From the NCBI RefSeq assembly GCF_900141985.1, contig NZ_FQZK01000008.1, positions 186,001 through 250,000 of the forward strand: DNA of 64,000 nt, in the 5' to 3' direction. Below, in pieces: positions 33,106 through 49,988 of this stretch; the stretch's first letter is position 1, and every line of letters begins with the position of its first letter. A model generated the notes under the pieces. It did no database searches. It was not told the DNA's origin and saw nothing but the letters and a program-made list of their open reading frames with translations. This DNA is from Nocardiopsis flavescens. Its GTDB lineage: Bacteria > Actinomycetota > Actinomycetes > Streptosporangiales > Streptosporangiaceae. Made by a program: the position numbers and the translations under genes.

Positions 33106-36100
33106 CGGACCACGTCCCCGCCGGTCACCGTGTCCAGGTGCTTGAGGATGCCGGGGGCGTAGGGCACCGACAGCATGCCGAAGTGGTCGCCGGGGACGTC
33201 CACGATCCGCAGGTCGCCCAGGACCAGGCGCTCCCAGTAGTCGGTGACGCTCTCCTTGTTCCCGGGGAAGGGGTAGGCGCCGCCGTGCCGGACGAAGGTG
33301 ACGTCGCCCGCGTAGGGCTGCGGCTCGTAGCGCGAGATGGAGAACACGCTCTGGCGGAAGATGCGGAACATCTCGTCCAGCGCCTCGGGCTCGTAGGTGC
33401 CCGCCGAGGGCGGCACGGCCGCGCACATGCGCGCCACCCGCACCTCGCGCGGCACCCCGGCCAGGGCGCGAAAGGCCGCGGCGACGTCGGCGTACTCCCC
33501 CTCCAGGCGGCCGATGGCCCCGTCCGGGAGCAGCCCCGGGGTGGCCTCCAGCAGCAGGTCGGAGGCGGCCGAGACGCGGTTCTCGTCCGCCGGGAACCCG
33601 ACCGAGACCGGGTCGATGCCCATCATCACGGCGAACGCGTACTCCGAGATGAGCTCGTCGTCGAGGCGGAAGGGCGGGCGGTGCGTGCTGATCGCGGTGA
33701 GCGAGGCGACCTCGGCGCCGGCCTCGGTGAGGGTGCGGGCGACCTCGGTGGCGAGGAGCCCGCCCAGGCAGTAGCCCACCACGTGGAAGCGGTCGCCGCC
33801 GCGCTCCAGCAGCGCGCGGGCGTAGTCGGCCGCCCACGTCTCGATGACCGCGGCCGGGTCGGCCGCCAGGAACGCGGGCACGTCGGGCAGCTCCAGGCCG
33901 ACCAGGGTGCCGCGGCCGGCGGAGCGGCGGCGGATCTCGGTGATCAGGGCCCGGTAGGGGATGAGCGTGCCCGTGCCCGCGTGGACGAGGGCGGTGACCG
34001 TGCCCCCGCCGGGGCCGTTGAGGGGCACGTACGGGTCCGCGGCGCCGCCGGGGGCGGCCTCGCGCTGTCCGGAGAGGTCGCGCAGGTAGGAGGCCAGGCC
34101 CGCGACGGTCGGCGTGCGCAGCATGTGGCGCAGCACGACCTCCCACTCGATGTCCTCGCCGGTGCCGGGCAGGACCTCGCCCAGGCGGCCGACCATGCGG
34201 GCGACCAGCAGGGAGTCCCCGCCCAGGTCGAAGAAGTCGTCGTCGCGTCCCACCCGGGTGCGCTCCAGGAGCCCGGCCCACAGCCCGGCCAGGGCGCGCT
34301 CCAGGTCGTCGGCGGGCTCGGCGGACAGCGTCTCCACCGCGTCCACACCCTCGTCCCGGGGCAGGTCGCGGGCCAGCGCGGCGCGGTCGACCTTGCCGTT
34401 GCCGGTCAGCGGCAGGGAGTCCAGGACCCGCCACCGGGCGGGCACCATGTAGTCCGGCAGGCGGGCGGCGGTGTGGCGGACCAGCTCGTCGGGCCCGACC
34501 GGGGCGCGGTCCGTCTTGAGCCGGGTCAGGTACAGGGTCTGCCCGGTGCCCGAGAGCGGGTCGGCGGCGTCGGGCAGCACGAGCGGCGGCGCCGCCCCGG
34601 CGCGCTCCAGGGCCCGCGCCCACTGCCCGCGGTCCAGGAAGGTGCGGTCGTCCTCGGTGCGGTCGTCGCGGTGGCCGCCGTCCAGGCCCTCCAGGAACTC
34701 CATGGAGACCAGCAGGGCCGGGTCGGCTTCGAGGGTGGTCTCGATGAAGAGCAGGTGGCCGCCGGGGACGAGCATCTCCGCCGTGCGGGCCAGCGCGGTG
34801 TCGGCGCTGACGGCGTTGTGCAGGACGTTGGCCGCCACGACCGCGTCGAAGGAGTTGGGCTCGCGCCCCTGGGAGCGGGGGTCGCGGTCGAGGTCGTACA
34901 GGCCGAAGGACACCCACGGGAAGTCGGCGAACCGCTCCCTGGCCTCGGTGAGGAAGAACGGCGACACGTCCGTGAAGAGGTACTCGACGGCGTGTCCGGC
35001 CAGGGCGTGGACCACGGCCTCGGTGGTGCCGCCCACCCCCGCGCCGACCTCCAGGACGCGTAGGGGCGTGTCGCCGGTGCGGCGGCGCGCGATCTCGGCG
35101 AGCGCCGCGGCGGCGGAGGCGTTGAGGTGGCGGATGGCGAGGTTGTCGCGGTAGGCGGCCCCGGCGGTGTCGAGCGCGGCGCCGGGGAACAGCAGGGTGC
35201 GCACGTCCAGGTCGCCGCGCAGGAGTTCGGGCAGCCGCTCGGAGCAGGCCCGCATGTAGTCCAGGACCTCGGTGCCGTAGTCGATCCGCGCCTCCAGGCC
35301 GGCCAGCTCCTCCCAGCCGCGGGCGTGCTCCTCGCGGGTGACCGCGACCGGGTCGCGGAAGGCGTCGCCGTCGCGGGTGAGGCGGCCGGCGTCGGCGAGC
35401 GCGCCCAGCCAGCGGCGGACCAGCCGGTGGTGCCTGCGGTCCGCCCCCAGCGCGGCGGCGGCCTCGGCGGCGGTGTGGGCGGTGCCCCGGAACAGGCCTG
35501 CCCCGGTCAGGGTGAGGGTGATCGCCTCCAGCGCGGTGGTGCGCATCCGCTCCAGGAAGGCTTCGAGCCCGGCGCGGTCGAGTCCGGCCGCGGCCTGCTC
35601 CACCGCCGTGCGGGCGGCGCCGGCGACGGCGTCCTCCACGGCGGCGCGCGGGCCGGCCCCGCGGACGGCCGTCTCCACGAAGCCGGCCAGGCGCCGGTCC
35701 CTGCGGTCGCCCACGGCCAGGACGGCGGCCGAGGCCACGGCCGGGTGGGAGAGCACCGCGGCCTCGATCTCGGCGAGTTCGACCCGGTGCCCGCGGATCT
35801 TGACCTGGTCGTCCTCGCGGCCGAGGAACTCGATGTCGCCGCCGGGCCGGTAGCGTCCCAGGTCGCCGGTGCGGTAGAGCCGCTCCCCCGTCCCGGGGCG
35901 GGTGACGAAGCGCTCGGCGGTGCGGGCGGCGTCGCCCAGGTAGCCCGTGGCGACGCCCGCGCCGCCGATGTAGAGCTCCCCGGCGACCCAGTCGGGGCGG
36001 TCCCGCATGCGCTCGTCGAGCACGTGGAAGGTCTGGTTGGTGAGGGGGCGGCCGTAGGGGACGCTCGGCCAGGCGGGGTCCGGCTCCCCGATGCGGTGGT

Positions 36101-38594
36101 GGATGGACCAGATGGAGCCCTCGGTGGCCCCGCCGAGGCCGTACAGCTCGGTGCCGGGCAGGTGGGCGCGGACGCGCCCGGGCAGGGTGAGGGGGATCCA
36201 GTCGCCGGAGAGCAGCGCCGCCCGCAGCGCGGTGGGGGCGCCGTCGGGGGCGGTGGCCAGGTAGTCGGCGAGCATGGCCATCTGCGCGGGCACGGAGTTC
36301 CACAGGGTCACCCCGTGCTCGCGGGCCAGCTCGGCCCAGTGCGAGGGGTCCCCCCGGCGCTCGGCGTCGGGAAGGACGATCGCGCCGCCCCGGCCCGGGG
36401 GGCCGAAGAGGTCGTACACGGACAGGTCGAACCCCAGGGCGGCCAGGCCCAGCACGCGGTCCCCGGGGCCCACGGAGAGGCGGCGGTCGATGTCCTCCAC
36501 GGTGTTCAGGGCGGCGCGGTGCGCGATGACCACGCCCTTGGGGGTGCCGGTGGAGCCGGAGGTGTAGATGACGTAGGCCGGGTCGTCGGGCGAGACCGGC
36601 CGCTCGGGCAGCGCGGTGGGGGCGGGGCCCTCGGGGGCGGTGTCCACCTCGATGACGGCGGTGTCCGCGCCCCAGTCGCCCAGGGCGGCCAGCCAGGACT
36701 GGGTGAGGACGTGCCGGACCCCGGCGTCGCCCAGGATGGCGCGGCGGCGGGCGGCGGGCTGGGTGGTGTCGACCGGGACGTAGACGGTTCCGGCCAGCAG
36801 GGCGGCGTAGGCGGCGACGACCTGCTCGGGGCCCTTGTCCATGACGATGGCGACGCGGTCGCCCGGCGCGGCGCCGGCCCCGCGCAGCAGGGCCGCCGTG
36901 CCCGCGGCGCGCCGCCACAGCTCCCCGTGCGAGACCACGCGCCCGCCGTGCAGCACGGCCGGGGCGCCGGGGGTCTCCAGGGCGCGGGCCAGCGCGTTCT
37001 CGTGGAGCAGGGCGTCGGGCAGCGGGCCCTCGGTGGAGTTGGCCCGGGTGCGCGTGAGCACCTGTTCGGCGGGCAGCGGGACCGGGTCCGCCGCGTCCCA
37101 GGCGGCGTCGGAGCCGGCCAGGCGGCGCAGCAGGTCGTGGTAGGCGCGGAAGGCGTCGCCGGCCATGCCCTCCGGGAGCACGCCCTCGCGGACGTCCCAG
37201 CGCAGGGCCAGGGTGTCGCCGTTCAGGGAGACCTGGCAGTCCACCCACACCTGGGGGGTCTGGGAGAGTCCGTACACCTCCCGGGCCGCCCACGCGCCGG
37301 GGTCGGGCTCGCCGTCGTCGGCGCCCAGCGCGCCGGTGAAGACGACCGGCATCAGCACGGCGGTCTCGTCCCGGCGCCGGGACAGCTCGGCCAGCAGCTC
37401 GCCGCCCGAGTACAGGCCGTGGTCCAGGTCCTCGATGAGCCGGGCCTGGCGGGCGGCGGCGCGCTCGGTGAAGGTGGCGCCGTCGTCGGCGCGCACCGCC
37501 AGCAGGGTCAGCGAGGTGAAGTCGCCGACAACGCGGCCCAGGTCCGGGTGCGTGTCCGGGCGCCGGGGCACCGGCAGGTTGAGCGTGAAGTCGGGTCGGC
37601 GCGACCACAGGCCGACCACCTCGGCGTAGGCGGCCAGGGCGACCGAGGAGGGCGTCAGCCCGCGGTCCGCGGCGCGGGTGCGCAGCGCCTTCCAGACGTC
37701 GGGCTCCAGGCGGGCGGAGAGCCGGGTGAACCGCGCCGAGGCGTCGGCGGCGTGGTCGGCCAGGGGGAGTTCGGGCGCCGGGGGCAGCGTGTCCGCGCGG
37801 TCCGCCCAGTAGGCGCGGTCGCGGTGGTACCCGGCGCCGTCGCGCAGCGCCCGCTGTGCCAGGACGTGGTCGCGGAAGGTCGCCTCCAGGGCGGGCAGGG
37901 CGAGGGCGGGGTCGTCGTAGAGCGCGCGCAGCTCCTCCAGGAGCAGGCGCACGCTCGTGTAGTCGGCGACGAGCAGGTCGGCGGACAGGTGCAGGACCGC
38001 CAGGTCCGCCCCGCGGGTCAGGTGCAGCCGCACCAGCGGCCAGGAGGAGGGGTCGGGGACCAGGTCGCGCAGGCGCTCCCGGGTCCGCCCGGCGTGGGGG
38101 CGGGGGTCGGCGGCGCCCACGTCGGTGACGGTGAGGGACTCGCCGGGGGCATCGGGGAGCACCTGCTGGTGCCCCTGGGGGGAGACCACGGCGCGGAGCA
38201 TGTCGTGCCGGTCCACCAGGGCGTTCCAGGCGGTGCGCAGGCGGTCCGGGTCCAGGTCGTCGAACTCCAGCTCGGCGTAGGCGTGGCAGGCGACGCCGCC
38301 GTAGTCGTAGGCCGAGCCCCGGCCGACCAGGTAGGCGCCCTGGACGTCGGTGAGGGGGAAGGGCTCGTGGCGCGCCCCGGGGTCGGGGACCAGGGCGGGG
38401 GCGGCCGGCTCCTCCAGCAGGGCCAGGACCGCGTCGCGGTGCTCGCGCAGCAGGGCGCGCCGTTCGTCGGTGAGGGTGCCCGAGGGCGCGCGGAAGTGGA
38501 TGCGTCCGGCGTCGGCCCACAGGTGGACGCCCTCCGCACGGAGTGCGTCGAGCAGGGCGCGCGGGTCGTCGGGGGTGGCGGGGGTGGGCTGCAC
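33102..38594 (-). CDS. NRPS: docking-Cy-A(MT)-PCP-TE, cysteine module (PchF-like)
   Basis: 1830 residues. A TubC-type docking domain (8-60) should accept the first NRPS. The Cy domain (75-505) has the full DxxxxDxxS motif at D206-D211-S214. The A domain (530-970) has code residues D723, L724, Y727, N766, L794, S796, L820, I828, W829, K1401, which reads DLYNLSLIWK, the textbook Cys code. A methyltransferase (about 975-1365, motif LEVGAGVGG at 1191) interrupts the A domain before its last motif, as in PchF, where it N-methylates the thiazolidine. The PCP serine is S1461. The TE (1530-1825) has C1609 in GYCLG instead of Ser, with H1804. The GTG at 38594 has GAGGAGA upstream. Confidence 0.95.
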   Translation of the reverse strand: MQPTPATPDDPRALLDALRAEGVHLWADAGRIHFRAPSGTLTDERRALLREHRDAVLALLEEPAAPALVPDPGARHEPFPLTDVQGAYLVGRGSAYDYGGVACHAYAELEFDDLDPDRLRTAWNALVDRHDMLRAVVSPQGHQQVLPDAPGESLTVTDVGAADPRPHAGRTRERLRDLVPDPSSWPLVRLHLTRGADLAVLHLSADLLVADYTSVRLLLEELRALYDDPALALPALEATFRDHVLAQRALRDGAGYHRDRAYWADRADTLPPAPELPLADHAADASARFTRLSARLEPDVWKALRTRAADRGLTPSSVALAAYAEVVGLWSRRPDFTLNLPVPRRPDTHPDLGRVVGDFTSLTLLAVRADDGATFTERAAARQARLIEDLDHGLYSGGELLAELSRRRDETAVLMPVVFTGALGADDGEPDPGAWAAREVYGLSQTPQVWVDCQVSLNGDTLALRWDVREGVLPEGMAGDAFRAYHDLLRRLAGSDAAWDAADPVPLPAEQVLTRTRANSTEGPLPDALLHENALARALETPGAPAVLHGGRVVSHGELWRRAAGTAALLRGAGAAPGDRVAIVMDKGPEQVVAAYAALLAGTVYVPVDTTQPAARRRAILGDAGVRHVLTQSWLAALGDWGADTAVIEVDTAPEGPAPTALPERPVSPDDPAYVIYTSGSTGTPKGVVIAHRAALNTVEDIDRRLSVGPGDRVLGLAALGFDLSVYDLFGPPGRGGAIVLPDAERRGDPSHWAELAREHGVTLWNSVPAQMAMLADYLATAPDGAPTALRAALLSGDWIPLTLPGRVRAHLPGTELYGLGGATEGSIWSIHHRIGEPDPAWPSVPYGRPLTNQTFHVLDERMRDRPDWVAGELYIGGAGVATGYLGDAARTAERFVTRPGTGERLYRTGDLGRYRPGGDIEFLGREDDQVKIRGHRVELAEIEAAVLSHPAVASAAVLAVGDRRDRRLAGFVETAVRGAGPRAAVEDAVAGAARTAVEQAAAGLDRAGLEAFLERMRTTALEAITLTLTGAGLFRGTAHTAAEAAAALGADRRHHRLVRRWLGALADAGRLTRDGDAFRDPVAVTREEHARGWEELAGLEARIDYGTEVLDYMRACSERLPELLRGDLDVRTLLFPGAALDTAGAAYRDNLAIRHLNASAAAALAEIARRRTGDTPLRVLEVGAGVGGTTEAVVHALAGHAVEYLFTDVSPFFLTEARERFADFPWVSFGLYDLDRDPRSQGREPNSFDAVVAANVLHNAVSADTALARTAEMLVPGGHLLFIETTLEADPALLVSMEFLEGLDGGHRDDRTEDDRTFLDRGQWARALERAGAAPPLVLPDAADPLSGTGQTLYLTRLKTDRAPVGPDELVRHTAARLPDYMVPARWRVLDSLPLTGNGKVDRAALARDLPRDEGVDAVETLSAEPADDLERALAGLWAGLLERTRVGRDDDFFDLGGDSLLVARMVGRLGEVLPGTGEDIEWEVVLRHMLRTPTVAGLASYLRDLSGQREAAPGGAADPYVPLNGPGGGTVTALVHAGTGTLIPYRALITEIRRRSAGRGTLVGLELPDVPAFLAADPAAVIETWAADYARALLERGGDRFHVVGYCLGGLLATEVARTLTEAGAEVASLTAISTHRPPFRLDDELISEYAFAVMMGIDPVSVGFPADENRVSAASDLLLEATPGLLPDGAIGRLEGEYADVAAAFRALAGVPREVRVARMCAAVPPSAGTYEPEALDEMFRIFRQSVFSISRYEPQPYAGDVTFVRHGGAYPFPGNKESVTDYWERLVLGDLRIVDVPGDHFGMLSVPYAPGILKHLDTVTGGDVVR

Positions 38595-38646
38595 GGTGTG
38601 TTCTCCTCAGGGGTCCGGGGGCGGTCCCCGGTCGGGTGGGGCGGGG

Positions 38647-41600
38647 TCAGATGACGCCGGTGCTCACGTCGCCGGGTTCGGCGGCGCGGACCTGGCCGGC
38701 GAGGGCGGCGAGGGTGGGGACGGCCAGGAAGGAGCGGGTGGAGATCTCCGCGGCCGTCTCCCGGCGCAGGGCCGTGATCATGCGGATGGCCAGGAGGCTG
38801 CTGCCGCCCAGGGCGAAGAAGTTGGCCTCCCGGTCGTCCACCGGGACGCCGAGCACCTCCTCCCACACCCGGGCGATCCGCTTCTCCGCGTCGTCGGCGG
38901 GCGGTGCGCCCGGGGCCGGGGCCTCGCGCGCGGCCAGGGCCGCCAGCGCGGCGGTGTCGACCTTGCCGTTGGGCGTGAGCGGGATGTCCTCCAGGACGCG
39001 CACGGTGGCGGGGATCGCGTGGGCGGGCAGCCGCCGGGCCAGGTGGGCGGCGAGGTCGCCGTGGGAGGGGGCGGGGTCCCCGGCGGCCACGAAGGCCGCG
39101 AGCCTGCGGGCGGCGCGGTCCCCGACCGCCACCACGGCCGCCCGGCGCACCGCCGGGTGGTCCTCCAGGGCGGCCTCGACCTCGCCGGGTTCGAGCCGGT
39201 GCCCGCCGACCTTGACCTGGCGGTCGGTGCGGCCCAGGAACTCCAGGAGTCCCTCCGCGCGGTAGCGGCCCAGGTCGCCGGTGCGGTACCAGCGCTCGCC
39301 GCGGACGGTGGGGAACCGCTCGGCGGTGCGCCCGGGGTCGCCCCGGTAGCCGCGGGCCACCCCGGCGCCGCCGATCCACAGCTCGCCCGGCACCCAGTCG
39401 GGGCAGTCCCGGCCGTGGGGGTCGACGACCCGGTAGCGCTGGCCGCGCAGCGGGGTCCCGTAGGGCACCGAGGGCCATCCGGGGGGCGCGTGCCCGCCGT
39501 CGAAGGCGTTGGACCAGATGGACGCCTCGGTGGCGCCGCCCAGGGCGACCAGGTGGGTGCGGCCGCCGGTGGCGGCGCGCAGGCGGCGGGACAGGTCGGT
39601 ACCGACCCAGTCCCCGGAGACCAGGGCCAGGCGCAGGGAGCGGGAGGGCCCGGCGTCGCCGGCCGCCAGGAGCAGCATGTCCAGCAGGGCGGGCACGGTG
39701 TTCCACACCGTCACCTGGTGCTCGGCGCACAGCTCCAGCCATCGCCGGGGCTCGCGCCGCTCCTCCTCCCGCGGGACGACCAGGGCGCCTCCCGCGCCGA
39801 GCAGGCCGAACACGTCGTAGACGGAGAGGTCGAAGTCGAGCGCCGACAGGGCCAGGACGCGGTCGCCGGGGCCGACGCGGTAGCGGTCGTTGATCTCCGC
39901 GACGGTGTTCAGGGCCGCGGCGTGGGTGATCTCCACCCCCTTGGGGTCGCCGGTGGACCCGGAGGTGAACACCACGTAGGCGGTAGCGCCGGGGGCGACC
40001 GGGACGGGGGCCTCCAGCGGCTCGGACGCCGCCAGCTCGCCGACCTCCACGGAGCGCCCGGCGGCCTCGTCGGCGCCGACCGTCAGGACCGTCCCGGCGG
40101 CTGCGTGCACGCGCGCCCGGCGCAGGGGCGGCTGGCCGGTGCCGACGGGCACGTACGCGGCCCCGGCCGCCAGAACGCCCAGGACGGCGCAGACCTGGTC
40201 GGCGCCCTTGGGCAGGTGGACGCCGACGGCGTCGCCGGGGCGCACGCCGCGGGCGCGCAGCCCGGCCGCGATCCGCAGGGCCCGCTCCGCGGTCCCGGCG
40301 TGGGTGAGGACGCCGTCGGCGGTGATGAGGGCGGGGTCGGCGCCGCGCCGCGCGGCCCGCGCGAAGAAGGCGCCGTGCAGGGTCCCCGCCGGGAGGGGCC
40401 CGCCGGTGTCGTTCATGGAGGCCCGGACCCGCGCCTGGGCGGTGGGCACCGGGTCGGCCGCCAGGGCGGGCCAGGCCCGCGCGCCGCCGCGGGCCAGGCC
40501 GCGCAGCAGGTCGAGGTAGGCGGCGAACATGCCGTCCAGCACGCCGGGGCGGAACAGCTCCTCGACCGCGTCCCAGTACACGTCCAGGCCGCCCTCGCGT
40601 TCGAGGACCTGGTTGTCCAGGTGGACCTGCGGGGACTGGGACAGGCCCCGGACCCGGGCGGGGAACTCCGGGGACAGGTCCAGGGAGACCCCCTCCCCCA
40701 CGCCCAGGGAGCCGGTGAACACCACCGGGACCCCGGCCTGGGCGGTGCCGTCGCGCCGGGTCAGCTCCCGCAGGACCTCCTCGGCCGACACCTCCCGGTG
40801 GTCCAGGTCCCGGCCCAGGCCGCGCTGGAGTTCGCGGGCGGCCTCCAGCGGGTCCTGGCCGGGCTCGCGCCCGTAGGAGGCCAGGGACAGGGAGGTGAAG
40901 TCGCCCAGGACCCGGCCGATGCCGGGGTGGACGTCGCGGCGGTTGAACAGGGTGAGGGTGACGCTGAGCCGGGTCTGCCCGCTCCACGCGGCGAGCACCT
41001 CGCCGTAGCAGGCCAGGAGCAGGGCGGAGGGGGTGAGGCCCTCGGCCCGGGCCAGGGCGGTGAGGGCGCGCCACTGGCCGGGGTCCAGGTGGTCGGCGCG
41101 GCGGGTGAAGCGGGGCGCCTCGACCCGCGCCGGGTCGGCGGCCAGGGGCAGGGCCGGGGCGGGCGGCAGGTCGCGCACGCGCTCCCGCCAGTACTCCAGG
41201 GCGCGCTCCCGCCGCCGCGGGTCCTGCGCGACACCGGTGGCGTAGTCCCGGAAGGTGACCTCCAGGGGTTCCAGGGGCGCGTCGGGGTCGCGGTACAGCA
41301 GGTCCAGCTCGGTGTAGAAGGTCATGATGCTGAGCGCGTCCAGGACCAGGTAGTCCAGGCCCACGCCCAGCCGGACGCGTTCGGTGCCGCCGTCGGTGTA
41401 GCGCAGTGCGCGGATGTCGAACAGGGGCCAGCGGGCGGGGTCCAGGACGCGGTGGGACATGGTGTGGAAGAAGGCGTCGAGCGCCGCCCCCGGGTCGCCG
41501 GGGCCGGCGTCCCGCACGGGGATGCGGACGGCGGGGACCTCGGGCAGGACCCGCTGGTCCCCGTTGTCGTCGAAGACCGCGCGGAGCATGTCGTGCCGGG

Positions 41601-44600
41601 CGACGAGCCGGTCCAGCGCGCGCTCCAGCCGTCCCAGGTCCACGTCGGCGCCGTCGAACTCGGTGTAGTGGTAGGTGCCGACGCCGCCCAGGGTGAAGGC
41701 GGGGTCGCGGCCGGTCAGGTAGGCGCGCTGCACGCCGGTCGGGGGGAAGGGCTCGTGGCGGGAGCCGGGGTCGTGCGCGAGGACCCGCGGGCCGTCCGCC
41801 TCGCCCGGCTCCGGCAGGGCCGCGGCGAAGTCGGCCAGGACCGGGTGGACGAACAGGTCGGCCACGCCCGCGCCGGCGTAGCCGCGCTCCCGCAGCGCCG
41901 CCACCAGCCGGGTGGCCAGCAGCGAGTCGCCGCCCAGGGCGAAGAAGGACGAGGTGCGCGAGACGGAGGCGGCTCCGAGCAGGCCGGACCAGAGGTCGGC
42001 CACCTCCCGTTCGCGCTCCCCGCGGGGCGGGTCGCCCGCGTCCGGGGCGCCGGCGGCGCGGTCGCGCAGCAGGCGCTCCAGGGCGGCGCGGTCGGGTTTG
42101 CCGTTGGGGGTGAGCGGCAGCGCGGGGACGGCCTCCAGGACGGCGGGGACCATGGACGCGGGCAGCAGGTCCCGCAGGTGGGCGCCGAGCGCCGCGGCCG
42201 GGTCGAGGGGGTCGGCGCCCGGCGCCGGGACGACGGCGGCGGCGAGCACGGGGGCCGGGCCGCGCAGGACCAGGGCGAGGGCCGCCGCGACCCCGGGGTG
42301 CGCGGTCAGGGCGGCCTCGACCTCGCCGGTCTCGATCCGCACGCCGTTGACCTTGACCTGGTGGTCCAGGCGGCCGAGGAACTCCAGGGAGCCGTCGGGC
42401 AGGTACCGGGCCCCGTCGCCGGTGCGGTACCAGCGCCGCCCGTCCGCCCGGACGAACCGGTCGGCGGTGGCGCCGGGGTCGCCGCGGTACCCGAGGGCCA
42501 GGCCGGCCCCGCCCACCCAGAGCTCGCCGGGCACCAGGTCGGGGCGGTCGTTTCCCCGGGTGTCGACGACCCGGCAGCGCACCCCGGGGAGCGGGCGGCC
42601 CCAGGGGACGTGGCCCCACGCGGGGTCGGGCTCCGCCACCTCCAGCAGGGTGGAGTGGACGGCGGCCTCGGTCATGCCTCCCAGCGCCAGGAAGCGGCAC
42701 TCCGGGGCGAGCGCGCGCAGGCGTCCGGGCAGGTCGGCGCCGACGCGGTCGCCGCCGAGCAGGACGGCGCGCAGCGGCGGGGCCGGGGCCTGGCCCGACT
42801 CGGCGGCGGTCAGGAGCATGTCGAGCAGCGCGGGCACGCAGTTGAGGAGGGTGGCCCCGGTGCGCGCGGCGGTCCGCGCCCACCCCGCCGCGTCGCGGCG
42901 CGCGTCGGAGTCCACCAGGACGGCGGACCCGCCGGCCGACAGGGGCGCGAACAGGTCGAAGACGGACATGTCGAAGTCGATCTCCGCGAGGGCCAGGGTG
43001 CGGTCCCGCGGCCCCGTGCCCAGCAGGGCGTTGAGGACGTCCACGGTGTGGGCGGCGGCCCGGTGGGGGACCTCCACGCCCTTGGGCTCCCCGGTGGACC
43101 CGGAGGTGAACAGCACGTAGGCGGGGGCGTCCGGGGAGGCTTCCCGGGGCGCGGCGGCCCGGCCCTCCAGGGCCTGGGCGAGGGTGAGCGCGGGGACGTC
43201 GGCGCCGGCCAGGACGGCCGGGTCGTCGGAGAGCAGCAGCGCGGGGGCGCCGCGCTCCAGGATCGCGCGCCGGCGGGCGGGGGGCTGCTGCGCGCCCACC
43301 GGCAGGTAGGCGCGGCCCGCCGCCAGGATCCCCAGCAGGGCGGCGACCTGGTCGGCGCCCCGGGGCAGGCACAGGGCGACGGCCTCCCCCGGCGGGGCGG
43401 CGTCGGCCACCGCCCCGGCGATGCGCAGGGCGCGGTCTGCCAGCTCCCCGTAGGAGGTCTCCGTGCCGTCGGCGGCGACCAGCGCCGGGGCCGCGGGCGC
43501 GGTGCGGGCGTGCTCGAAGAAGCGCGCGTGGAGGGTGCGGGGGGCGGGGGCGGGCGGGCCGGCGGCCGGGGTGTCCCTGGTGCCGTCGTGGGCGGCGGGC
43601 ACGTGCGGGCGGAACGGCCGCGACCACGCCCCCGGGTCGTCGACGAGGGACTCGACGAGGTCGCGGTAGGCGTCGAAGGCCGCCTCGGCGGTCCCGGGCT
43701 CGAAGGCGTGCTCGCGCAGGTCCCAGTTGAGCAGCAGGCCGCCGTCGAGTTCGGTGACCTGGGCGTCCAGCCACACCTGGGGGCCCTGGGAGATGATGTG
43801 CACCGGTGCGCCGAAAACGCGCTGGACGGCGTCGCCGAACAGCGGGCCCAGGCCGATCGCGCTCGTGTAGACGACGGGCATGGGGACCATCGGCCCGCCG
43901 TGGAGCCGGGCCAGGTCGCGCAGCACTTCAACGCCCCCGTACGCGCCGTGGTCGACGGCGGCGTGCAGGTCGCGCCGGACCGTCCTGGCGCGCTCGGCGA
44001 AGGGGACCGCGTCGGCGGTGTCGACGGACAGCAGCACCGAACCGCTGAAGTCGCCGACCAGCCGGTCCACGTCGGGGTGCAGCGGGGCGCGGTCGAAGAG
44101 CGGCAGGTTGAGGGTGAACGCGGGTGCGGCGCTCCAGGCGCCCAGGACCTCGGCGAAGGCCGCCGCCAGGGCCGCCGCGGGGGTGGACCCGGCGGCGCGG
44201 GCGCGGTCGGCCAGCGCCCGGGTGCGCTCCGGGGTGAGCCGGTGGTGCAGGCGGGTGGAGCGGGCCAGGCGGGAGCCGGCGGGGGTGGGCCGGGAGGCGT
44301 CGACCACCGTGGGGAGCGCGGGGGCCGGGGGCAGGTCGGGCAGGCGCCCGTGCCACCAGGCGCGGGCCCGCTCGGCGGCTCCGGTGTCGCGGGCGGCGCG
44401 GTCGGCCAGGTAGCGGGCGAAGTCGTAGTCGAGCGGGGCGCGGTCGCGCCCCTCGTAGGCGGCCACGAGGTCGTCGAGCAGGACGCGCAGGCTGAGGGCG
44501 TCGGCCACGGCCATGTCCAGGTCCACGTGCAGGCGGGTGCGGCCCCGCGGCAGCAGCGTCAGCGCGACGTCCAGGACCTGCCCGCGGGACAGGTCCATGC

Positions 44601-45195
44601 GCCGGTGGGTGTTCTCGTCCCGCAGCCGGTCGAGGGTGCGCCGGACCCGCTCGGGGTCGGCGTCGCGCAGGTCGTGGACGGTGAGCGCGGCCCCGGGGCC
44701 GTCGGGGGCGGTGCGCTGGCGGCCGTCGCCGTCGAACCGGGCCCGGAGCATGGGGTGGCGGCCGACCACGGACTCCAGGGCGGCGGCGAGCCGGGCGGGG
44801 TCGACGCCGTCGCCGTCGAACTCGGTGTAGAAGTGCGCGGCCACGCCGCCCAGGGGCTGTTCGTCGCCGCGCCCGACCGCGTAGGCGTGCTGCATGGTCG
44901 CCAGGGGGAAGGGCTCCCCCTCGTCCGCGCGGGCCGGGGCGGGGGCGGCGTCCGCGGTGGACCCGGCGCCGGCCAGCAGCGCGGTCCAGGCCGCCACCGT
45001 CGGCGCGGTCGCCAGGTCCTCGAAGGTGACGTCGCGCCCCTGCTCCCGCCAGTGCCCGACGAGGCGGATGAGGCCCAATGAGTCGAGCCCGTGGTCGAAG
45101 AGGTCGTCGGTGTCGGCGAACCCCTCCGCTCCCAGGACCCGCGCCACGTGCTCCCGCACGGCCGCGCCGGCCTCCTCCACCACACGGTGCGACAC
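38647..45195 (-). CDS. NRPS: ArCP-Cy-A-PCP-Cy-A-PCP, loads aryl starter and builds two heterocycles
   Basis: 2182 residues. The aryl carrier protein (1-77, S39 in GLDSL) accepts the aryl group from the AMP ligase. Cy1 (95-525) has D227-D232-S235; A1 (550-1045) has code D742, M743, F746, N785, L812, G814, L838, V846, H847, K1033 (DMFNLGLVHK), nearest to the Thr code DFWNIGMVHK. PCP1 is S1091. Cy2 (1145-1580) has D1281-D1286-S1289; A2 (1605-2095) reads D1789, L1790, Y1793, N1832, L1858, S1860, L1885, I1893, W1894, K2078 (DLYNLSLIWK, Cys). PCP2 is S2133. There is no TE, so the chain passes to the second NRPS. The GTG at 45195 follows a G-rich site. Confidence 0.95.
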   Translation of the reverse strand: MSHRVVEEAGAAVREHVARVLGAEGFADTDDLFDHGLDSLGLIRLVGHWREQGRDVTFEDLATAPTVAAWTALLAGAGSTADAAPAPARADEGEPFPLATMQHAYAVGRGDEQPLGGVAAHFYTEFDGDGVDPARLAAALESVVGRHPMLRARFDGDGRQRTAPDGPGAALTVHDLRDADPERVRRTLDRLRDENTHRRMDLSRGQVLDVALTLLPRGRTRLHVDLDMAVADALSLRVLLDDLVAAYEGRDRAPLDYDFARYLADRAARDTGAAERARAWWHGRLPDLPPAPALPTVVDASRPTPAGSRLARSTRLHHRLTPERTRALADRARAAGSTPAAALAAAFAEVLGAWSAAPAFTLNLPLFDRAPLHPDVDRLVGDFSGSVLLSVDTADAVPFAERARTVRRDLHAAVDHGAYGGVEVLRDLARLHGGPMVPMPVVYTSAIGLGPLFGDAVQRVFGAPVHIISQGPQVWLDAQVTELDGGLLLNWDLREHAFEPGTAEAAFDAYRDLVESLVDDPGAWSRPFRPHVPAAHDGTRDTPAAGPPAPAPRTLHARFFEHARTAPAAPALVAADGTETSYGELADRALRIAGAVADAAPPGEAVALCLPRGADQVAALLGILAAGRAYLPVGAQQPPARRRAILERGAPALLLSDDPAVLAGADVPALTLAQALEGRAAAPREASPDAPAYVLFTSGSTGEPKGVEVPHRAAAHTVDVLNALLGTGPRDRTLALAEIDFDMSVFDLFAPLSAGGSAVLVDSDARRDAAGWARTAARTGATLLNCVPALLDMLLTAAESGQAPAPPLRAVLLGGDRVGADLPGRLRALAPECRFLALGGMTEAAVHSTLLEVAEPDPAWGHVPWGRPLPGVRCRVVDTRGNDRPDLVPGELWVGGAGLALGYRGDPGATADRFVRADGRRWYRTGDGARYLPDGSLEFLGRLDHQVKVNGVRIETGEVEAALTAHPGVAAALALVLRGPAPVLAAAVVPAPGADPLDPAAALGAHLRDLLPASMVPAVLEAVPALPLTPNGKPDRAALERLLRDRAAGAPDAGDPPRGEREREVADLWSGLLGAASVSRTSSFFALGGDSLLATRLVAALRERGYAGAGVADLFVHPVLADFAAALPEPGEADGPRVLAHDPGSRHEPFPPTGVQRAYLTGRDPAFTLGGVGTYHYTEFDGADVDLGRLERALDRLVARHDMLRAVFDDNGDQRVLPEVPAVRIPVRDAGPGDPGAALDAFFHTMSHRVLDPARWPLFDIRALRYTDGGTERVRLGVGLDYLVLDALSIMTFYTELDLLYRDPDAPLEPLEVTFRDYATGVAQDPRRRERALEYWRERVRDLPPAPALPLAADPARVEAPRFTRRADHLDPGQWRALTALARAEGLTPSALLLACYGEVLAAWSGQTRLSVTLTLFNRRDVHPGIGRVLGDFTSLSLASYGREPGQDPLEAARELQRGLGRDLDHREVSAEEVLRELTRRDGTAQAGVPVVFTGSLGVGEGVSLDLSPEFPARVRGLSQSPQVHLDNQVLEREGGLDVYWDAVEELFRPGVLDGMFAAYLDLLRGLARGGARAWPALAADPVPTAQARVRASMNDTGGPLPAGTLHGAFFARAARRGADPALITADGVLTHAGTAERALRIAAGLRARGVRPGDAVGVHLPKGADQVCAVLGVLAAGAAYVPVGTGQPPLRRARVHAAAGTVLTVGADEAAGRSVEVGELAASEPLEAPVPVAPGATAYVVFTSGSTGDPKGVEITHAAALNTVAEINDRYRVGPGDRVLALSALDFDLSVYDVFGLLGAGGALVVPREEERREPRRWLELCAEHQVTVWNTVPALLDMLLLAAGDAGPSRSLRLALVSGDWVGTDLSRRLRAATGGRTHLVALGGATEASIWSNAFDGGHAPPGWPSVPYGTPLRGQRYRVVDPHGRDCPDWVPGELWIGGAGVARGYRGDPGRTAERFPTVRGERWYRTGDLGRYRAEGLLEFLGRTDRQVKVGGHRLEPGEVEAALEDHPAVRRAAVVAVGDRAARRLAAFVAAGDPAPSHGDLAAHLARRLPAHAIPATVRVLEDIPLTPNGKVDTAALAALAAREAPAPGAPPADDAEKRIARVWEEVLGVPVDDREANFFALGGSSLLAIRMITALRRETAAEISTRSFLAVPTLAALAGQVRAAEPGDVSTGVI

Positions 45196-45240
45196 GACAC
45201 CCCACCCCTCTATGGCCGGTTTCGGCTCGATCAGCGATAA

Positions 45241-45255
45241 TGAAAACGGTTTTCA
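45241..45255. promoter_or_regulatory. Zur box in the divergent NRPS/aryl-AMP ligase promoter
   Basis: TGAAAAC-G-GTTTTCA is a perfect 7-1-7 palindrome, close to the actinomycete Zur consensus TGAAAATnATTTTCA. It lies 46 bases from the NRPS start and 77 from the ligase start, in a short AT-rich island. It does not resemble an IdeR/DmdR iron box. Confidence 0.85.
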
Positions 45256-45278
45256 TTGCCGATATGGCCATGTATAGC
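45250..45278 (+). promoter_or_regulatory. Promoter of the aryl-AMP ligase gene
   Basis: TTTTCA (45250-45255) and TATAGC (45273-45278) are 17 bases apart. The -35 is the right arm of the Zur box, so Zur binding would block it. Transcription would begin near 45285, giving a leader of about 47 bases ending in AGGGAG. Confidence 0.5.
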
Positions 45279-45331: not shown

Positions 45332-46939
45332 ATGACGCAGGACTGGCCGCGCCCCTCCGACGAGGAGGTCCGCGCCTACTGTGAGCAGGGCTTTCGCGAG
45401 GACCGGACCCTCTCGCGGCTGCTCAGGGAGCAGGCCGCCGCCCGCCCGGACGCCACCGCCCTCGTCTCACCGTCCGGACGGCTCACCTACGCCGCGCTCG
45501 ACTCCCGGGTGGACCGGCTCGCCCGCGGCCTGGCCGGGCTGCCGGTCCGCGCGGGCGAACGCGTCCTGGTACGGCTGCCCAACCGCGAGGAGTACGTCCT
45601 CGCGCTGTTCGCGCTGCTGCGCGTCGGGGCGGTCCCCGTGCCGGTCCTGCCGTCCCTGGGCCCCGCCGAGGTGGAGTCCCTGGCCCGGACCTCCGGCGCG
45701 TGCGCGCTCGTCGTCGCCGACCGGTACGGCCGCTCCGACCCGCGCGCGGAGGCGGTCCGGATCGCCGGGCGCCTGCCCGGGGTGCGGCACGTGCTGGTCG
45801 CGGGCGGGCCCGGGGACTCCCCCGCGCGCCCCCTGGACGCGCTTTACGCGCCGGAGGCCGGTCCCCTGGAGGAGGCGGCCTCACCCGAGGACCTCGCCCT
45901 GCTCCTGCTGTCCGGCGGGACGACGGGCACCCCCAAGCTGATCCCCCGCACCCACGCCGACTACGGCTACAACGCGCTCGCCTCGGCACGGGCGTGCGGG
46001 GTGGGCCCCGACACCGTCTACCTGGCCGTCCTCCCGGCGGCGCACAACTTCACGATGGTCTCGCCGGGCCTGGTCGGCGTGCTGGCGTCCGGGGGCACCG
46101 TGGTGCTGTGCCCCGACCCCAGCCCCACCACGGCCTTCGGGCTGGTCGAGCGCGAGGGCGCCACCCTCACCTCGCTCGTCCCGGCCCTGCTCCCCTCCTG
46201 GCTGGACGAGGCCCGGCGCACCCGCGCCGACCTGTCCTCGCTGCGGGTGCTCCAGGTCGGGGGCTCGCGCCTGGACGAGGGCACCGCGCGCAGGATCGGC
46301 CCGGAGCTGGGCTGCCGCCTCCAGCAGGTGTTCGGCATGGCCGAGGGCCTGAACAACTACACGCCCCTGGACGCCCCCGAGGACCTCGTGTGCACCACCC
46401 AGGGCAGGCCGCTCTCCCCCGCCGACGAGGTCCTCGTCGTGGACGGGGACGGCGCCCCGGTCCCGCCGGGCGCCCCCGGGGAGCTGCTCACCCGCGGCCC
46501 CTACACCCTGCGCGGCTACTACCGGGCGCGCGAGCTGGACGCCCTGTGCTTCACCCCCGACGGCTTCTACCGCACCGGCGACCTCGTCACCCGCTCGGCC
46601 GACGGGGACCTCGTCGTGGTGGGCCGGGTCAAGGACCAGGTCAACCGGGCCGGGGAGAAGATCGCGGCGGTGGAGGTGGAGGAGCACCTGCTCGCCCTGC
46701 CGGGGGTCCGCGCGGCGGCGGTCGTGGGAGCGCCCGACCCGCACCTGGGGGAGCGCTCGGTGGCGTTCGTGGTGGCCGAGGGGCCGGCCCCCACCCGGGA
46801 GGAGGTCCGGGCGGCGATGCTGCGCCGCGGGGCGGCCCCGCACAAGGTGCCCGACGAGGTACGCGGCGTCCCCGGGCTCCCGCTCACCGGGGTCGGCAAG
46901 GTCGACAAGGGGAGCCTGCGGGAGCGGGAGGGCCTCTGA
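45332..46939 (+). CDS. dhbE: 2,3-dihydroxybenzoate-AMP ligase (DhbE/EntE/YbtE family)
   Basis: 535 residues, complete. ATP-binding loop SGGTTGTPKLI, A5 motif FGMAEGL, A8 YRTGDLV, and catalytic Lys near the C-terminus in TGVGKVDKG. It activates an aryl acid and loads the ArCP of the first NRPS. The aryl pocket reads H238-N239-F240, S244, equivalent to DhbE N235 and S240. Ser there is the DHB-type residue, whereas salicylate ligases have Cys. N341 replaces the Val (DHB) or Leu (salicylate) at DhbE 337 and is unusual. The DHB reading agrees with the nearby dhbA and isochorismatase genes. The ATG has AGGGAG five bases upstream. Confidence 0.92.
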   Translation: MTQDWPRPSDEEVRAYCEQGFREDRTLSRLLREQAAARPDATALVSPSGRLTYAALDSRVDRLARGLAGLPVRAGERVLVRLPNREEYVLALFALLRVGAVPVPVLPSLGPAEVESLARTSGACALVVADRYGRSDPRAEAVRIAGRLPGVRHVLVAGGPGDSPARPLDALYAPEAGPLEEAASPEDLALLLLSGGTTGTPKLIPRTHADYGYNALASARACGVGPDTVYLAVLPAAHNFTMVSPGLVGVLASGGTVVLCPDPSPTTAFGLVEREGATLTSLVPALLPSWLDEARRTRADLSSLRVLQVGGSRLDEGTARRIGPELGCRLQQVFGMAEGLNNYTPLDAPEDLVCTTQGRPLSPADEVLVVDGDGAPVPPGAPGELLTRGPYTLRGYYRARELDALCFTPDGFYRTGDLVTRSADGDLVVVGRVKDQVNRAGEKIAAVEVEEHLLALPGVRAAAVVGAPDPHLGERSVAFVVAEGPAPTREEVRAAMLRRGAAPHKVPDEVRGVPGLPLTGVGKVDKGSLREREGL

Positions 46940-46981: not shown

Positions 46982-47620
46982 TCAGGCGGCCAGCGCGGCG
47001 AGCAGCCCCTTGGTGCTCGCCACGCTCGCGCACCGGCGCGCCGCGTAGGACAGGGCCATGGCGTGGTCGCCGGCGGAGAAGTCGGCGACCGCGTCGGCGG
47101 CGATGAACGTCCGGATGTCGCGCATGAAGGCGTCGCAGGCGGTCATCAGCACCCCGATGTGCGCGTAGACGCCGCAGATCACCAGCTGGTCCCGGCCCGC
47201 GTCGCGGAGCAGGTCCTCCAGGCCGGTCCGGACGAAGGCGCTGTAGCGCCACTTCGTGAGGTGCACGTCCCCCCGCTCCGCGTCGAAGGGCACTACGAGG
47301 GAGGTGTGCCCGGGGTCGTCGCGCAGCCCCTCGCCCCACAGGTCGCGCAGCAGGCCGCGGTCCCTCGGGTGCTGCGCCCCGGGCTGGGCGGTGTGGATGC
47401 GGGGGATGCCGCGCTCGGCGCAGGCGTCGCGCAGCAGCGCGGTGTTGGAGAGCAGCTCGGGCACCGGGGCGGCTCCCCCGTCGAACGCGCCGAGGAAGTA
47501 GCGCTGCATGTCGTGGACCAGCAGGACGCAGCGGTCGGGGTCGAGCGTCCAGTCCATCCGGGGTTCGGGCAGGTCGGACTCGGTGGGCATCGGGTAGGAG
47601 GGGATGGCGGGCAGGGACAC
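46982..47620 (-). CDS. dhbB: Isochorismatase (EntB/DhbB N-terminal domain type, no carrier domain)
   Basis: 212 residues. It hydrolyses isochorismate to 2,3-dihydro-2,3-dihydroxybenzoate and pyruvate. D37 in LLVHDMQRYF and K123 in LTKWRYSAF are catalytic, and G156 in GVYAHIG replaces the Cys of other hydrolases, exactly as in EntB/PhzD. EntB has a C-terminal ArCP; here it is absent because the carrier is fused to the first NRPS. The GTG at 47620 has GAGAGAA just upstream. It is the last gene of the zur-dhbA-dhbB operon and ends in a strong terminator. Confidence 0.92.
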   Translation of the reverse strand: MSLPAIPSYPMPTESDLPEPRMDWTLDPDRCVLLVHDMQRYFLGAFDGGAAPVPELLSNTALLRDACAERGIPRIHTAQPGAQHPRDRGLLRDLWGEGLRDDPGHTSLVVPFDAERGDVHLTKWRYSAFVRTGLEDLLRDAGRDQLVICGVYAHIGVLMTACDAFMRDIRTFIAADAVADFSAGDHAMALSYAARRCASVASTKGLLAALAA

Positions 47621-47659: not shown

Positions 47660-48436
47660 TCAGGAGCCGAGTCCGGCTCCCCCGTCCACACGCAGGTCGT
47701 GCATGGTGATGTGGGAGGCCTCGGGCGAGCAGAGGAAGGCGACCGCGTCGGCGACGTCCCGCGGGCGGGCCAGCCGCCCCAGGGGGATGCCCGCGCGGAA
47801 CTCCCCGGGGACCCCGGCGACCGCCGGGTGGGGGCCCGGCGCGCCCGCCCAGCGGGCCCGGTTCATCGGGGTGTCGGTCGCCCCGGGCGAGACCGCGTTG
47901 CAGCGGACGCCGTGCGGGGCCAGCTCCAGGCCCAGGCAGCGGGTGAAGTGCGCGACGGCCGCCTTGGAGGCCGCGTACGCGGACATCCCCACGCGCGGGA
48001 CCGCGCCCGCGTCCGAGCCGACCGTGACGATGGCGCCCGCGCCGCGGGGGACCATTCTCCGGGCGGCGGCCCGGCAGAGCTGGAAGACGCCCAGGGCGTT
48101 GACGTCGAAGACCGCGCGCCAGTCCTCGGAGGAGAACTCCGTGACGGGTCCCCAGCGCAGCACCCCGGCGACGTTGACCAGGGCGGTGAGCGGACCGCGC
48201 TCCTCCTCCACGGAGTCCACGAGGGCGTCGACCGCCTCCTCGTCGGTGACGTCGAGCGGGTGCCCGGTGACGTCGAGCCCGGCACGGGAGAGGTCGGCGG
48301 CGAGCCCGCGGACGGCCGGGCCGTCCGCGTCGGCCGCCGCGACCCGGTGGCCCGCGGCGGCCAGGCGCCGCACCACCGCGCTCCCGATCCCCCCGGCGGC
48401 GCCGGTGACCAGTGTCGATCCCTCAGTCGCAGTCAG
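47660..48436 (-). CDS. dhbA: 2,3-dihydro-2,3-dihydroxybenzoate dehydrogenase (apparent CTG start)
   Basis: 258 residues of the short-chain dehydrogenase family. It oxidises the isochorismatase product to 2,3-dihydroxybenzoate with NAD+. NAD motif TGAAGGIG, catalytic SAYAASK, and the EntA/DhbA C-terminal signature SHITMHDLRVDGG. The first ATG/GTG in frame (GTG at 48376) would remove the NAD-binding motif. The only fitting start is CTG at 48436, six bases after GGGGG and overlapping the Zur stop by 14 bases; the N-terminus would be TATEGSTLV after the initiator. Translational coupling or a non-standard start is inferred. Confidence 0.88.
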   Translation of the reverse strand: MTATEGSTLVTGAAGGIGSAVVRRLAAAGHRVAAADADGPAVRGLAADLSRAGLDVTGHPLDVTDEEAVDALVDSVEEERGPLTALVNVAGVLRWGPVTEFSSEDWRAVFDVNALGVFQLCRAAARRMVPRGAGAIVTVGSDAGAVPRVGMSAYAASKAAVAHFTRCLGLELAPHGVRCNAVSPGATDTPMNRARWAGAPGPHPAVAGVPGEFRAGIPLGRLARPRDVADAVAFLCSPEASHITMHDLRVDGGAGLGS

Positions 48437-48815
48437 GGCACACCCCCGAGAATTCCAGTGAGTAGGACAGTTCGGCGAAACCGGTCAGCCGCTCGACCCG
48501 GGCGAGCACCGCGCGCACCTCCCGCGCGTGCGGGACCTCCCGCGCCCGGCCGCAGGCGCGGCAGAGCAGGTGGTGGTGGGAGGAGGTGGCGCAGCGGCGG
48601 TAGAGGCGCTCGCCCTCCTCGGAGTGGATGGCGTCGACCTCGCCCTCCCGCGCCAGCCGGTGCAGCGTCCGGTAGACGGTGGACAGGCTGGGCGGGCGCG
48701 CCGGACCGCCGCGGGCATCCGCGATCAGGGCGTGGACCTCCTGGCAGCTGCGGAACCGGTCGCCGCGCCGCAGGGCGGACAGCACCTCGTTGTCGTACCT
48801 GGATCCCGCGCCCAT
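48423..48815 (-). CDS. zur: Fur-family zinc uptake regulator (Zur-like)
   Basis: 130 residues. The winged helix has SLSTVYRTLHRLAREG as recognition region and FRSCQEVHALI before it. The dimerisation domain has HHHLLCRACGR and ends in GVCPDC, giving the two CxxC structural zinc sites, plus YRRC as in Streptomyces Zur. From memory it resembles Zur much more than FurA/CatR or Nur. It is first in the operon with dhbA and dhbB, and a Zur-type box covers the promoter upstream, so zinc-dependent autoregulation is likely. No clear ribosome site precedes the ATG. Whether this is the genome's main Zur or a cluster-specific copy is unknown. Confidence 0.85.
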   Translation of the reverse strand: MGAGSRYDNEVLSALRRGDRFRSCQEVHALIADARGGPARPPSLSTVYRTLHRLAREGEVDAIHSEEGERLYRRCATSSHHHLLCRACGRAREVPHAREVRAVLARVERLTGFAELSYSLEFSGVCPDCD

Positions 48816-48988: not shown

Positions 48989-49016
48989 GTTATGATAACC
49001 GTTTTCATTTTGACAA
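48989..49016 (-). promoter_or_regulatory. Promoter of zur-dhbA-dhbB with second Zur box
   Basis: TGATAAC-C-GTTTTCA (48993-49007) is a 7-1-7 palindrome with one mismatch, sharing GTTTTCA with the box at 45241. On the minus strand TTGTCA (49016-49011) and CATAAC (48994-48989), 16 bases apart, form a promoter fully covered by the box. TTGACA (49010-49015) on the other strand could serve the plus-strand genes. The leader of zur would be about 165 bases, with no ORF I can support. Confidence 0.75.
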
Positions 49017-49152: not shown

Positions 49153-49452
49153 ATGACCATGAGCGAACAACGGCGGACCGCCGTGAACGGCCCGTCCGCC
49201 CCGAGGAACCCCTATGACCGCCCGCCGCTGGAGGAGCGCGCACCGGACGTCGGTGTACGGCACCGCGAGCCGCTCTTCCCGCACGAGACCCTGGAGGGGT
49301 GGCGGCACCCGGACGGCGAGTGGCACTGGCGGTACCGGGCCCGCGTGGACGCGCACCCCGTCACCGTCCGGCTGACGGCGGAACCCGGCGTCCCCGTGGA
49401 AGAGGTCGCCGAACGCGTGAGGGCGGTGGCCGCCCTGGGGACGGTGGGGTGA
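49153..49452 (+). CDS. Small protein of unknown function
   Basis: 99 residues with normal actinomycete codon use and GGGAG eight bases before the ATG. The N-terminal 35 residues are Pro/Arg-rich and probably disordered. The C-terminal half has a repeated Trp/Arg pattern (GWRHPDGEWHWRYRAR) and a short beta-alpha end (VTVRLTAEPGVPVEEVAERV). No family is recognised and there are no membrane or signal segments. It is divergent from the zur operon across the second Zur box, so zinc control is conceivable, and it lies six bases before another small gene. Confidence 0.55.
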   Translation: MTMSEQRRTAVNGPSAPRNPYDRPPLEERAPDVGVRHREPLFPHETLEGWRHPDGEWHWRYRARVDAHPVTVRLTAEPGVPVEEVAERVRAVAALGTVG

Positions 49453-49458
49453 CGCACG

Positions 49459-49842
49459 ATGCCCTTCCACGTCCCCTCCGTGCCGGGGCAGGGCGGGGCC
49501 GCCGACCCCCTCGACGTGCCGCTGGTCCTCGAAGTGGTGGACTACCTGCCCAACCCGCACGCGCCCGCGGCGCTGGCCCAGACCCCGGAGCGCGTCACCT
49601 GGTACCTCCAGCTCGGGGCGTACACCCACGAGACCGCCCGGTCCGCGGCCAAGACCATGCCGGACGCGGTGCTGGCGGCACTGCTCGCCGGGTTCGGGCT
49701 GGAGGTGCCCTGCGACGAGGCGCGCAGCGACCCCGTCCGCGCGCTGGGGCCGCTCGCGGGCGCGGTCGTCACCGCGGCCCTGGTCCCGTCGGCGCTGCGA
49801 CCGCGCGGGCCCGGCGGGGAAGGGGGCCCCGCACCCGGCTGA
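49459..49842 (+). CDS. Small protein of unknown function
   Basis: 127 residues, six bases after the preceding gene, probably in one operon. It has a soluble alpha/beta composition (VPLVLEVVDYLPNPHAP, ERVTWYLQLGAYTHETARSA in separate helices) and a Gly/Pro-rich tail. No catalytic motif, signal or membrane helix is visible, and no family is recognised. Third-position GC is high, which supports it being real. Confidence 0.5.
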   Translation: MPFHVPSVPGQGGAADPLDVPLVLEVVDYLPNPHAPAALAQTPERVTWYLQLGAYTHETARSAAKTMPDAVLAALLAGFGLEVPCDEARSDPVRALGPLAGAVVTAALVPSALRPRGPGGEGGPAPG

Positions 49843-49905
49843 GGCGCCCGCGCGTCCGGGGCCGCCGGGACCGCGCGGGGCGGGTTCTCCCCGGCCCCGC
49901 GGGAG

Positions 49906-49911
49906 TAGACT
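49906..49911 (+). promoter_or_regulatory. Probable -10 of the AfsR-like gene
   Basis: TAGACT is the only AT-rich hexamer between the small genes and the regulator. A start near 49918 would give a leader of about 70 bases. No convincing -35 is seen. Confidence 0.35.
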
Positions 49912-49988
49912 CCTGGGATCCGTGGTGCCGCTGTGCTCCCGCGCACCCGGTGCGGGGGCACCCCTTCGGTCCAGTGCTGGGAGTGGCG

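Follow-up and report, generated by a model that had tools for sequence, protein, structure and literature searches.

The gene cluster that we describe here very probably encodes a coelibactin-type NRPS line primed with 2,3-dihydroxybenzoate (DHB), in which the first adenylation domain (A1) would activate a beta-hydroxy amino acid and the first ring would be an aryl-oxazoline. It lies in a stretch of 64,000 nucleotides from Nocardiopsis flavescens, hereafter the window. Judged by its sequence, A1 is nothing unusual within an established group of domains with Gly at position 301 and His at position 331 (G301/H331), a trait inherited within the coelibactin-like family. An earlier note on this DNA had taken its pocket for a new variant of the Thr code; the pocket had been read correctly and is meaningful, but the prediction was over-specific and the novelty mistaken. 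The explanation that we favor takes code, domains, gene order and phylogeny as they were found, and infers substrate, ring state, starter, release and metal.

The core of the cluster is formed by two NRPS genes with the following features:

38647-45195, minus strand: NRPS1, ArCP-Cy1-A1-PCP-Cy2-A2-PCP
44926-45195, minus strand: ArCP, aryl carrier domain with the DSL serine kept
43576-44925, minus strand: Cy1, heterocyclisation domain with DxxxxD (DMAVAD)
about 42046-43539, minus strand: A1, adenylation domain, code DMFNLGLVHK (NRPS1 residues 553-1050)
38911-40395, minus strand: A2, Cys-type code DLYNLSLIWK
33102-38594, minus strand: NRPS2, TubC docking-Cy3-A3 (methyltransferase inserted)-PCP-TE
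35715-37019, minus strand: A3 core, Cys-type code DLYNLSLIW(K)
33105-34034, minus strand: TE, its nucleophile elbow GYCLGG carrying Cys where Ser is usual

With a G+C content of 76.6%, the window holds many false open frames, but the G+C content by codon position clearly marks the coding frame. Two long frames running through the NRPS genes, 31969-38520 (2183 aa) and 38350-45081 (2243 aa), were rejected as non-coding, high-G+C artefacts; the low end of the former is the real saccharopine dehydrogenase-like gene listed below.

The ten-letter codes of the three A domains were read via motif anchors, and the column mapping was checked on other domains, for which the identical columns yield DFWNIGMVHK and DVWHFSLIDK, both textbook A-domain codes and the former the canonical Thr code. 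The code DMFNLGLVHK that had been assigned to the first A domain (placed at 42061-43560) was confirmed on the minus strand, with G301 and H331 at NRPS1 residues 814 and 847. The statements on the other two A domains and on Cy1 held as well: A2 and A3 both read DLYNLSLIWK, the Lys of A3 sitting beyond the methyltransferase insertion, in NGK, and Cy1 is intact in that it keeps DxxxxD, the motif of Cy domains, as DMAVAD. The Cys calls for A2 and A3 fit the pocket letters of PchE, whose substrate is Cys and whose code is DLFNLSLIWK when aligned with the solved structure, and of BmdB, whose letters equal those of A2 over the part covered by the structure alignment. In A1 the columns that hold S301 and W331 in Cys domains are occupied by G301 and H331. 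PchE (7emy) is the best PDB match of A1 by sequence (408.4 bits), and its fold matches with Z 48.7, an rmsd of 2.2 and 52% identity over 481 aligned residues. The fold comparison thus gives an A-domain fold nearest PchE and does not separate Ser from Thr. As for the Phe at the third code position, which had been thought new, it is found in PchE, in 33 of 81 G301/H331 domains with the window included (Y 40, W 7, gap 1) and in 11 of 81 S301/W331 domains.

The pocket is conserved among relatives. G301, H331 and the Lys are present in every one of the nine nearest A1 orthologues (identity 63-73%), and five of these match in all ten code letters; a match at E<=1e-120 was found in 31 of 200 genomes of the family, the window's own genome counted. 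Chance agreement with the Thr code is ruled out by the conservation in 9/9 orthologues together with the masked-code tree described below.

Next, we studied the lineage of A1. From fetched loci we gathered 266 A domains, among the matches listed (at least 80 loci in the contig scan), and compared G301/H331 domains, with DFWN codes set apart, with S301/W331 domains; seven loci, six of them copies of earlier records and one (L029) equal to L047, were removed before the site, classifier and upstream-Cy counts. Letters 301 and 331 themselves served to define the two groups, so that the perfect split at these positions is circular; the other sites and the trees with masked code are free of this. 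The trees were built by a quick search, SH-aLRT being their sole measure of support, and some of their rows were picked by hand, others at random. The first tree had 90 rows, drawn from the 266 domains and the window's three, and the second 83 rows from the same set plus 12 myxobacterial domains. In the first masked-code tree 44 of 45 G301/H331 rows formed one group (SH-aLRT 82; 96 for 42 of them) that nests within the Cys-type rows; in the second, 51 such rows came together at 90 and 49 at 95. Support for the whole group is therefore moderate (82, 90), the nearer groups of A1 being starred. Canonical Thr rows formed a separate group with support 100 in both masked-code trees, which rules out a descent of A1 from canonical Thr domains.

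Sites outside the code told the same two groups apart. Thr at 333 occurs in 79/80 G301/H331 rows and in 0/79 Cys rows, Cys after N278 in 72/80 and 0/79, and A1 has the G301/H331 state at both. A classifier built without the ten code columns scored A1 at +187, A2 at -41 and A3 at -157; without its nine orthologues A1 still reached +117, and the errors were 1/80 G301/H331 rows below 0 and 7/79 Cys rows above 0. A Cy domain lies directly upstream in 77 of the 78 G301/H331 domains in which this could be tested, with two further ones beyond the test. The letters, the upstream Cy and the common descent outside the code that characterize this group were thus all found in A1. The one G301/H331 row that fell outside the group in the first tree and the one testable domain that lacks such a Cy are the same Nostoc A domain (L089, code DMYNFGMIHK), possibly a second origin of these letters.

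The 34-residue signature, by which the earlier note had suggested checking its Thr call, places A1 nearest to G301/H331 domains (19-34/34) and nearer to Cys domains (17-22/34) than to canonical Thr domains (13-14/34). All 34 pocket residues are common to A1 and four sequences of the second-tree comparison. Most likely, as judged from these sequences, the lineage of A1 split off from Cys-activating domains and came to resemble part of the Thr code by convergence. It would have arisen inside the Cy-linked, Cys-activating A domains by a change from S301/W331 to G301/H331. Since the match to the Thr code is then convergent and not by descent, the code table is not directly transferable.

With Cy1 intact, the pocket most likely means that A1 activates a beta-hydroxy amino acid and that an oxazoline is formed; its code letters leave both Thr and Ser and allow no choice of Thr over Ser. 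The earlier note had gone from a Thr code to a methyloxazoline. Its non-Cys A1 and its probable oxazoline hold, but not the preference for Thr, since G301/H331 is present in all four sorangibactin-type myxobacterial clusters that we found and sorangibactin contains Ser. We give a threonine-specific A1, with a product starting DHB-5-methyloxazoline, an even chance. Five letters (N278, G301, V330, H331 and K517) equal the canonical Thr code, and a methylated dihydrooxazole has been predicted for coelibactin (PMC10127202), a prediction credited to Bentley et al. 2002 (PMC10080011). For the first A domain of mupirochelin, antiSMASH and PRISM are reported to say Cys and two other tools Thr, that is, Thr from two of four predictors, and the authors hypothesised Thr from MS/MS (PMC10080011). 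Against Thr stand the sorangibactin-type clusters and the likeness to canonical Thr domains, which looks convergent rather than inherited. Activation of serine, leading to a DHB-oxazoline that a P450 might oxidise to an oxazole as proposed for SrbH, has in our estimate slightly less than an even chance. Sorangibactin incorporates serine, as shown by feeding, even though antiSMASH says Cys for its first A domain, and deletion of the P450 SrbH is described to leave the oxazoline form (PMC10127202); a P450 gene is also present in the window. The four myxobacterial clusters, relatives of the sorangibactin strain among which MSr11367 itself is not included, all have DLYNLGLIHK at A1, a Cys-type code in each of the other two A domains, and a GYCLGG TE. 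On the other hand, the window A1 differs from these domains at 236, 239 and 330, and in the second tree the two lie in different halves of the G301/H331 group: the myxobacterial A1 rows stand with the MbtB/NbtF-like mycobacterial and Nocardia single-module rows, the window with the coelibactin-like clusters. For NbtF of Nocardia, the amino acid taken by the A domain has been proposed to be Thr or Ser depending on the strain, and in nocobactin-type pathways ring methylation is proposed to follow this choice (PMC7413640). The G301/H331 lineage seems to hold both Ser and Thr users, and its pocket letters do not tell one from the other. For A1's own sub-branch, the coelibactin-like clusters and the window's clade, we found no tested substrate in the literature. 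The coelibactin and mupirochelin proposals give us a slight lean to Thr.

Two further substrates were weighed. That A1 still activates cysteine, so that all three rings would be sulfur rings, we consider improbable: antiSMASH makes this call for the relatives sorangibactin and mupirochelin, and in its 34-residue signature A1 has more in common with Cys domains than with canonical Thr ones, but both S301 and W331 of the PchE and BmdB alignments are replaced in A1, Thr333 and the Cys after N278 are G301/H331-group states outside the code, and sorangibactin shows that a Cys call can be wrong. Activation of alpha-methylserine is known from FmoA3, where it leads to a 4-methyloxazoline product. Structures of this enzyme with alpha-methyl-L-serine-AMP (6ltc, 6ltd) were among the fold matches, and FmoA3 aligns across the A1 pocket; yet in this alignment it carries S301 and W331, unlike A1, and the family matches, over the part of the cluster frames that was scanned, suggest no enzyme forming alpha-methylserine. 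We rejected this substrate on the differing pocket letters and regard it as the least probable. Returning to the beta-hydroxy amino acid, an origin of A1-type domains in the Cys lineage with a changed pocket would explain why the published predictions for the first module of related lines disagree, with Thr from code-based tools and Cys from antiSMASH.

The starter was examined from the genes beside the NRPS genes:

45332-46939, plus strand: aryl-AMP ligase (DhbE/EntE type), pocket motifs HNFTMVSPG and GLNNYT
46982-47620, minus strand: isochorismatase
47660-48376, minus strand: 2,3-dihydro-2,3-dihydroxybenzoate dehydrogenase-like SDR (TIGR04316, 294.7 bits, cut-off 300)
48423-48815, minus strand: FUR-family regulator

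The ligase keeps HNF[TP]MVSPG and GLNNYT in 9/9 orthologues, and the ligases of 11 other clusters have CPG and GL[IL]N. In the reference ligases the corresponding motifs are SSPG/GLVNY (DhbE), ACPG/GLLNY (a salicylate ligase) and CCPG/GLICY (PchD). All ten clade members thus share the Ser of DhbE and an Asn in place of the Val of DHB ligases, a position that is Leu or Ile in salicylate ligases. The isochorismatase gene is present in 9/9 close orthologues and in 0/11 other clusters compared; in the limited upstream stretch, the SDR gene stands beside seven of the nine orthologues and the FUR-family gene beside three. In three of the 11 other clusters the SDR matches were no more than distant (32-35%) and lay well away from the ligase. 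No isochorismate synthase was seen in the window, and a search of the genome gave two matches over the cut-off, both on other contigs. The genes and most of the ligase pocket support 2,3-dihydroxybenzoate as the probable starter. The DHB starter of the earlier note is accordingly supported by the DHB genes and the ligase Ser; against it stand the ligase Asn in place of Val and a TIGR02275 score (565.3 bits) below the DHB-ligase cut-off of 723.55. Where coelibactin-type lines have a salicylate starter the window has DHB genes and a ligase Ser instead of Cys, and for these two reasons we filed it as a coelibactin-type line with another starter rather than as coelibactin itself.

Two palindromes accompany these genes:

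45240-45256, no strand: ATGAAAACGGTTTTCAT, between the divergent ligase and NRPS1 genes
48992-49008: ATGATAACCGTTTTCAT, near the FUR-family gene

The former resembles actinobacterial Zur boxes. With up to 3 mismatches, 0.00 occurrences of the pattern are expected by chance. A site with at most 2 mismatches lies at 6.5-6.9 kb, near the point from which ligase and NRPS1 diverge, in 9/9 close orthologues and in 2/11 other clusters.

The remaining partner genes follow downstream of the NRPS genes, on the same strand:

31972-33120, minus strand: saccharopine dehydrogenase-like (SDH-like) protein, SrbE type, start not fixed
30884-32020, minus strand: thiazolinyl imine reductase, Irp3 type, start not fixed (TIGR01761, 294.1 bits, cut-off 188.8)
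30102-30890, minus strand: type II thioesterase (TEII)
29304-30041, minus strand: stand-alone methyltransferase
27490-29289, minus strand: ABC transporter (membrane and ATPase)
25757-27496, minus strand: ABC transporter (membrane and ATPase)
24487-25791, minus strand: cytochrome P450, best PDB match 3tyw/4fxb
20867-24437, minus strand: family-5 substrate-binding protein and permease gene (uptake)

The P450 matches 3tyw/4fxb, presumably CYP105N1, the P450 of the coelibactin cluster, with 456.6 bits, the next PDB match reaching 336.1. Just beyond the cluster, at 49299-52820, lies a large BTAD/NB-ARC/TPR regulator; further on, the frame 53699-55414 matches an OAA-family lectin domain and, weakly and below its cut-off, SMI1/KNR4.

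In the assembly that we propose, Cy1 would join the amino acid of A1 with DHB on ArCP and close the aryl-oxazoline, modules 2 and 3 would add two Cys-derived rings, the Irp3-type reductase would reduce at least one of these, and the inserted methyltransferase would methylate one. A TE with cysteine is reported for coelibactin and sorangibactin, and release with a homocysteine-type nucleophile is proposed for the latter (PMC10127202). By analogy, the Cys-nucleophile TE of the window would free the chain, perhaps with a nucleophile of this type.

To place the cluster among its relatives we compared 20 clusters of our own choice from the genome matches, nine close orthologues and 11 others. The nine orthologues keep the window's gene order wherever the stretch reached (in one, G080, it ends before the P450 and uptake genes). 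A GYC[LV]GG TE is present in 19 of the 20, the exception (G028) differing in layout. A search of 282 myxobacterial genomes with A1 matched four, near whose matches we detected NRPS genes and ligase-like matches, and none of the other cluster genes. The TE search gave no match in 57 genomes of one class and a sorangibactin-type cluster in 4 of 289 genomes of a second, these being myxobacterial. A Pseudomonadota genome (G900; loci L221/L222) has a similar NRPS layout, a GYCLGG TE, and SDH-like, Irp3-like and ABC genes, with Cys codes at all three A domains; in the stretch taken, ArCP, P450, TEII and the DHB gene were not matched. Its three Cys codes rule out a fixed link between layout and substrate, so layout alone proves nothing on the A1 substrate, and the first-module substrate appears, from these sequences, to change within this layout.

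Within the open-licence literature, in the texts available, we found no description of a DHB-primed coelibactin-type cluster, and the branch may be undescribed there; a search of the same literature for six ten-letter A-domain codes found only the canonical Thr code. A bolder and rather doubtful proposal is that the window and its nine orthologues form a branch of their own within the coelibactin family, apparently not described before, that makes catechol-(methyl)oxazoline-thiazoline-thiazolidine metallophores, with the starter selected by a ligase whose pocket has the unusual Asn (for Val/Leu), release by the Cys-TE with a thiolactone, and control by a Zur-like box. The clade is a natural variant set, with DHB instead of salicylate, for seeking a coelibactin-family product. 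If A1 takes Thr, the proposed metallophores would count with the family's earliest proven methyloxazoline compounds and provide a handle on the missing coelibactin, which according to the published accounts has not itself been isolated.

Finally, we compared the cluster with known systems. PchE of pyochelin differs from A1 in its S301 and W331 and in an inserted epimerase domain. The mycobacterial and Nocardia single-module loci, whose identity as MbtB/NbtF (mycobactin, nocobactin) we take from species and length, likewise have a Cy followed by a G301/H331 A domain, but they are single-module proteins of another pathway with a salicylate starter. A mixed ring series, considered new by the earlier note, has precedents in the coelibactin prediction and in isolated compounds: tetroazolemycins combine an aryl-oxazoline with an N-methylthiazolidine (PMC3707159), and sorangibactins with an oxazole have been isolated. 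Uniformides are said to resemble transvalencin A (PMC11364655), for which the accounts searched give no Thr/Ser state of the ring. The sorangibactin cluster (srb) is alike in domain order, SDH, Irp3-like protein, P450, GYCLGG TE and, from four related genomes, G301/H331 at A1; it differs in its salicylate starter and in the half of the group that holds its A1, and the P450s of sorangibactin-type clusters are only 32-34% identical to that of the window. The coelibactin cluster (Streptomyces coelicolor SCO7676-7692) shares two NRPS proteins, metal-transport genes, a P450, ABC transporters and a Cys TE as described (PMC10127202, PMC3430247). In the window we found the NRPS domain order of the coelibactin type, its Cys TE, and the SDH-like, Irp3-like, P450 (CYP105N1-like), TEII, methyltransferase and ABC partners. 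The ligase gene and those for the saccharopine dehydrogenase-like and Irp3-like proteins, TEII and methyltransferase also occur in Streptomyces clusters with this layout, whose A1 codes are DLWQLGLVHK (5/7 clusters) and DMYNLGLVHK (2/7), S. coelicolor not being among the seven. The window differs from these clusters in having its P450 after the exporters, where theirs comes before, in its DHB genes, and in a ligase with VSPG/GLNNY instead of CPG/GL[IL]N.
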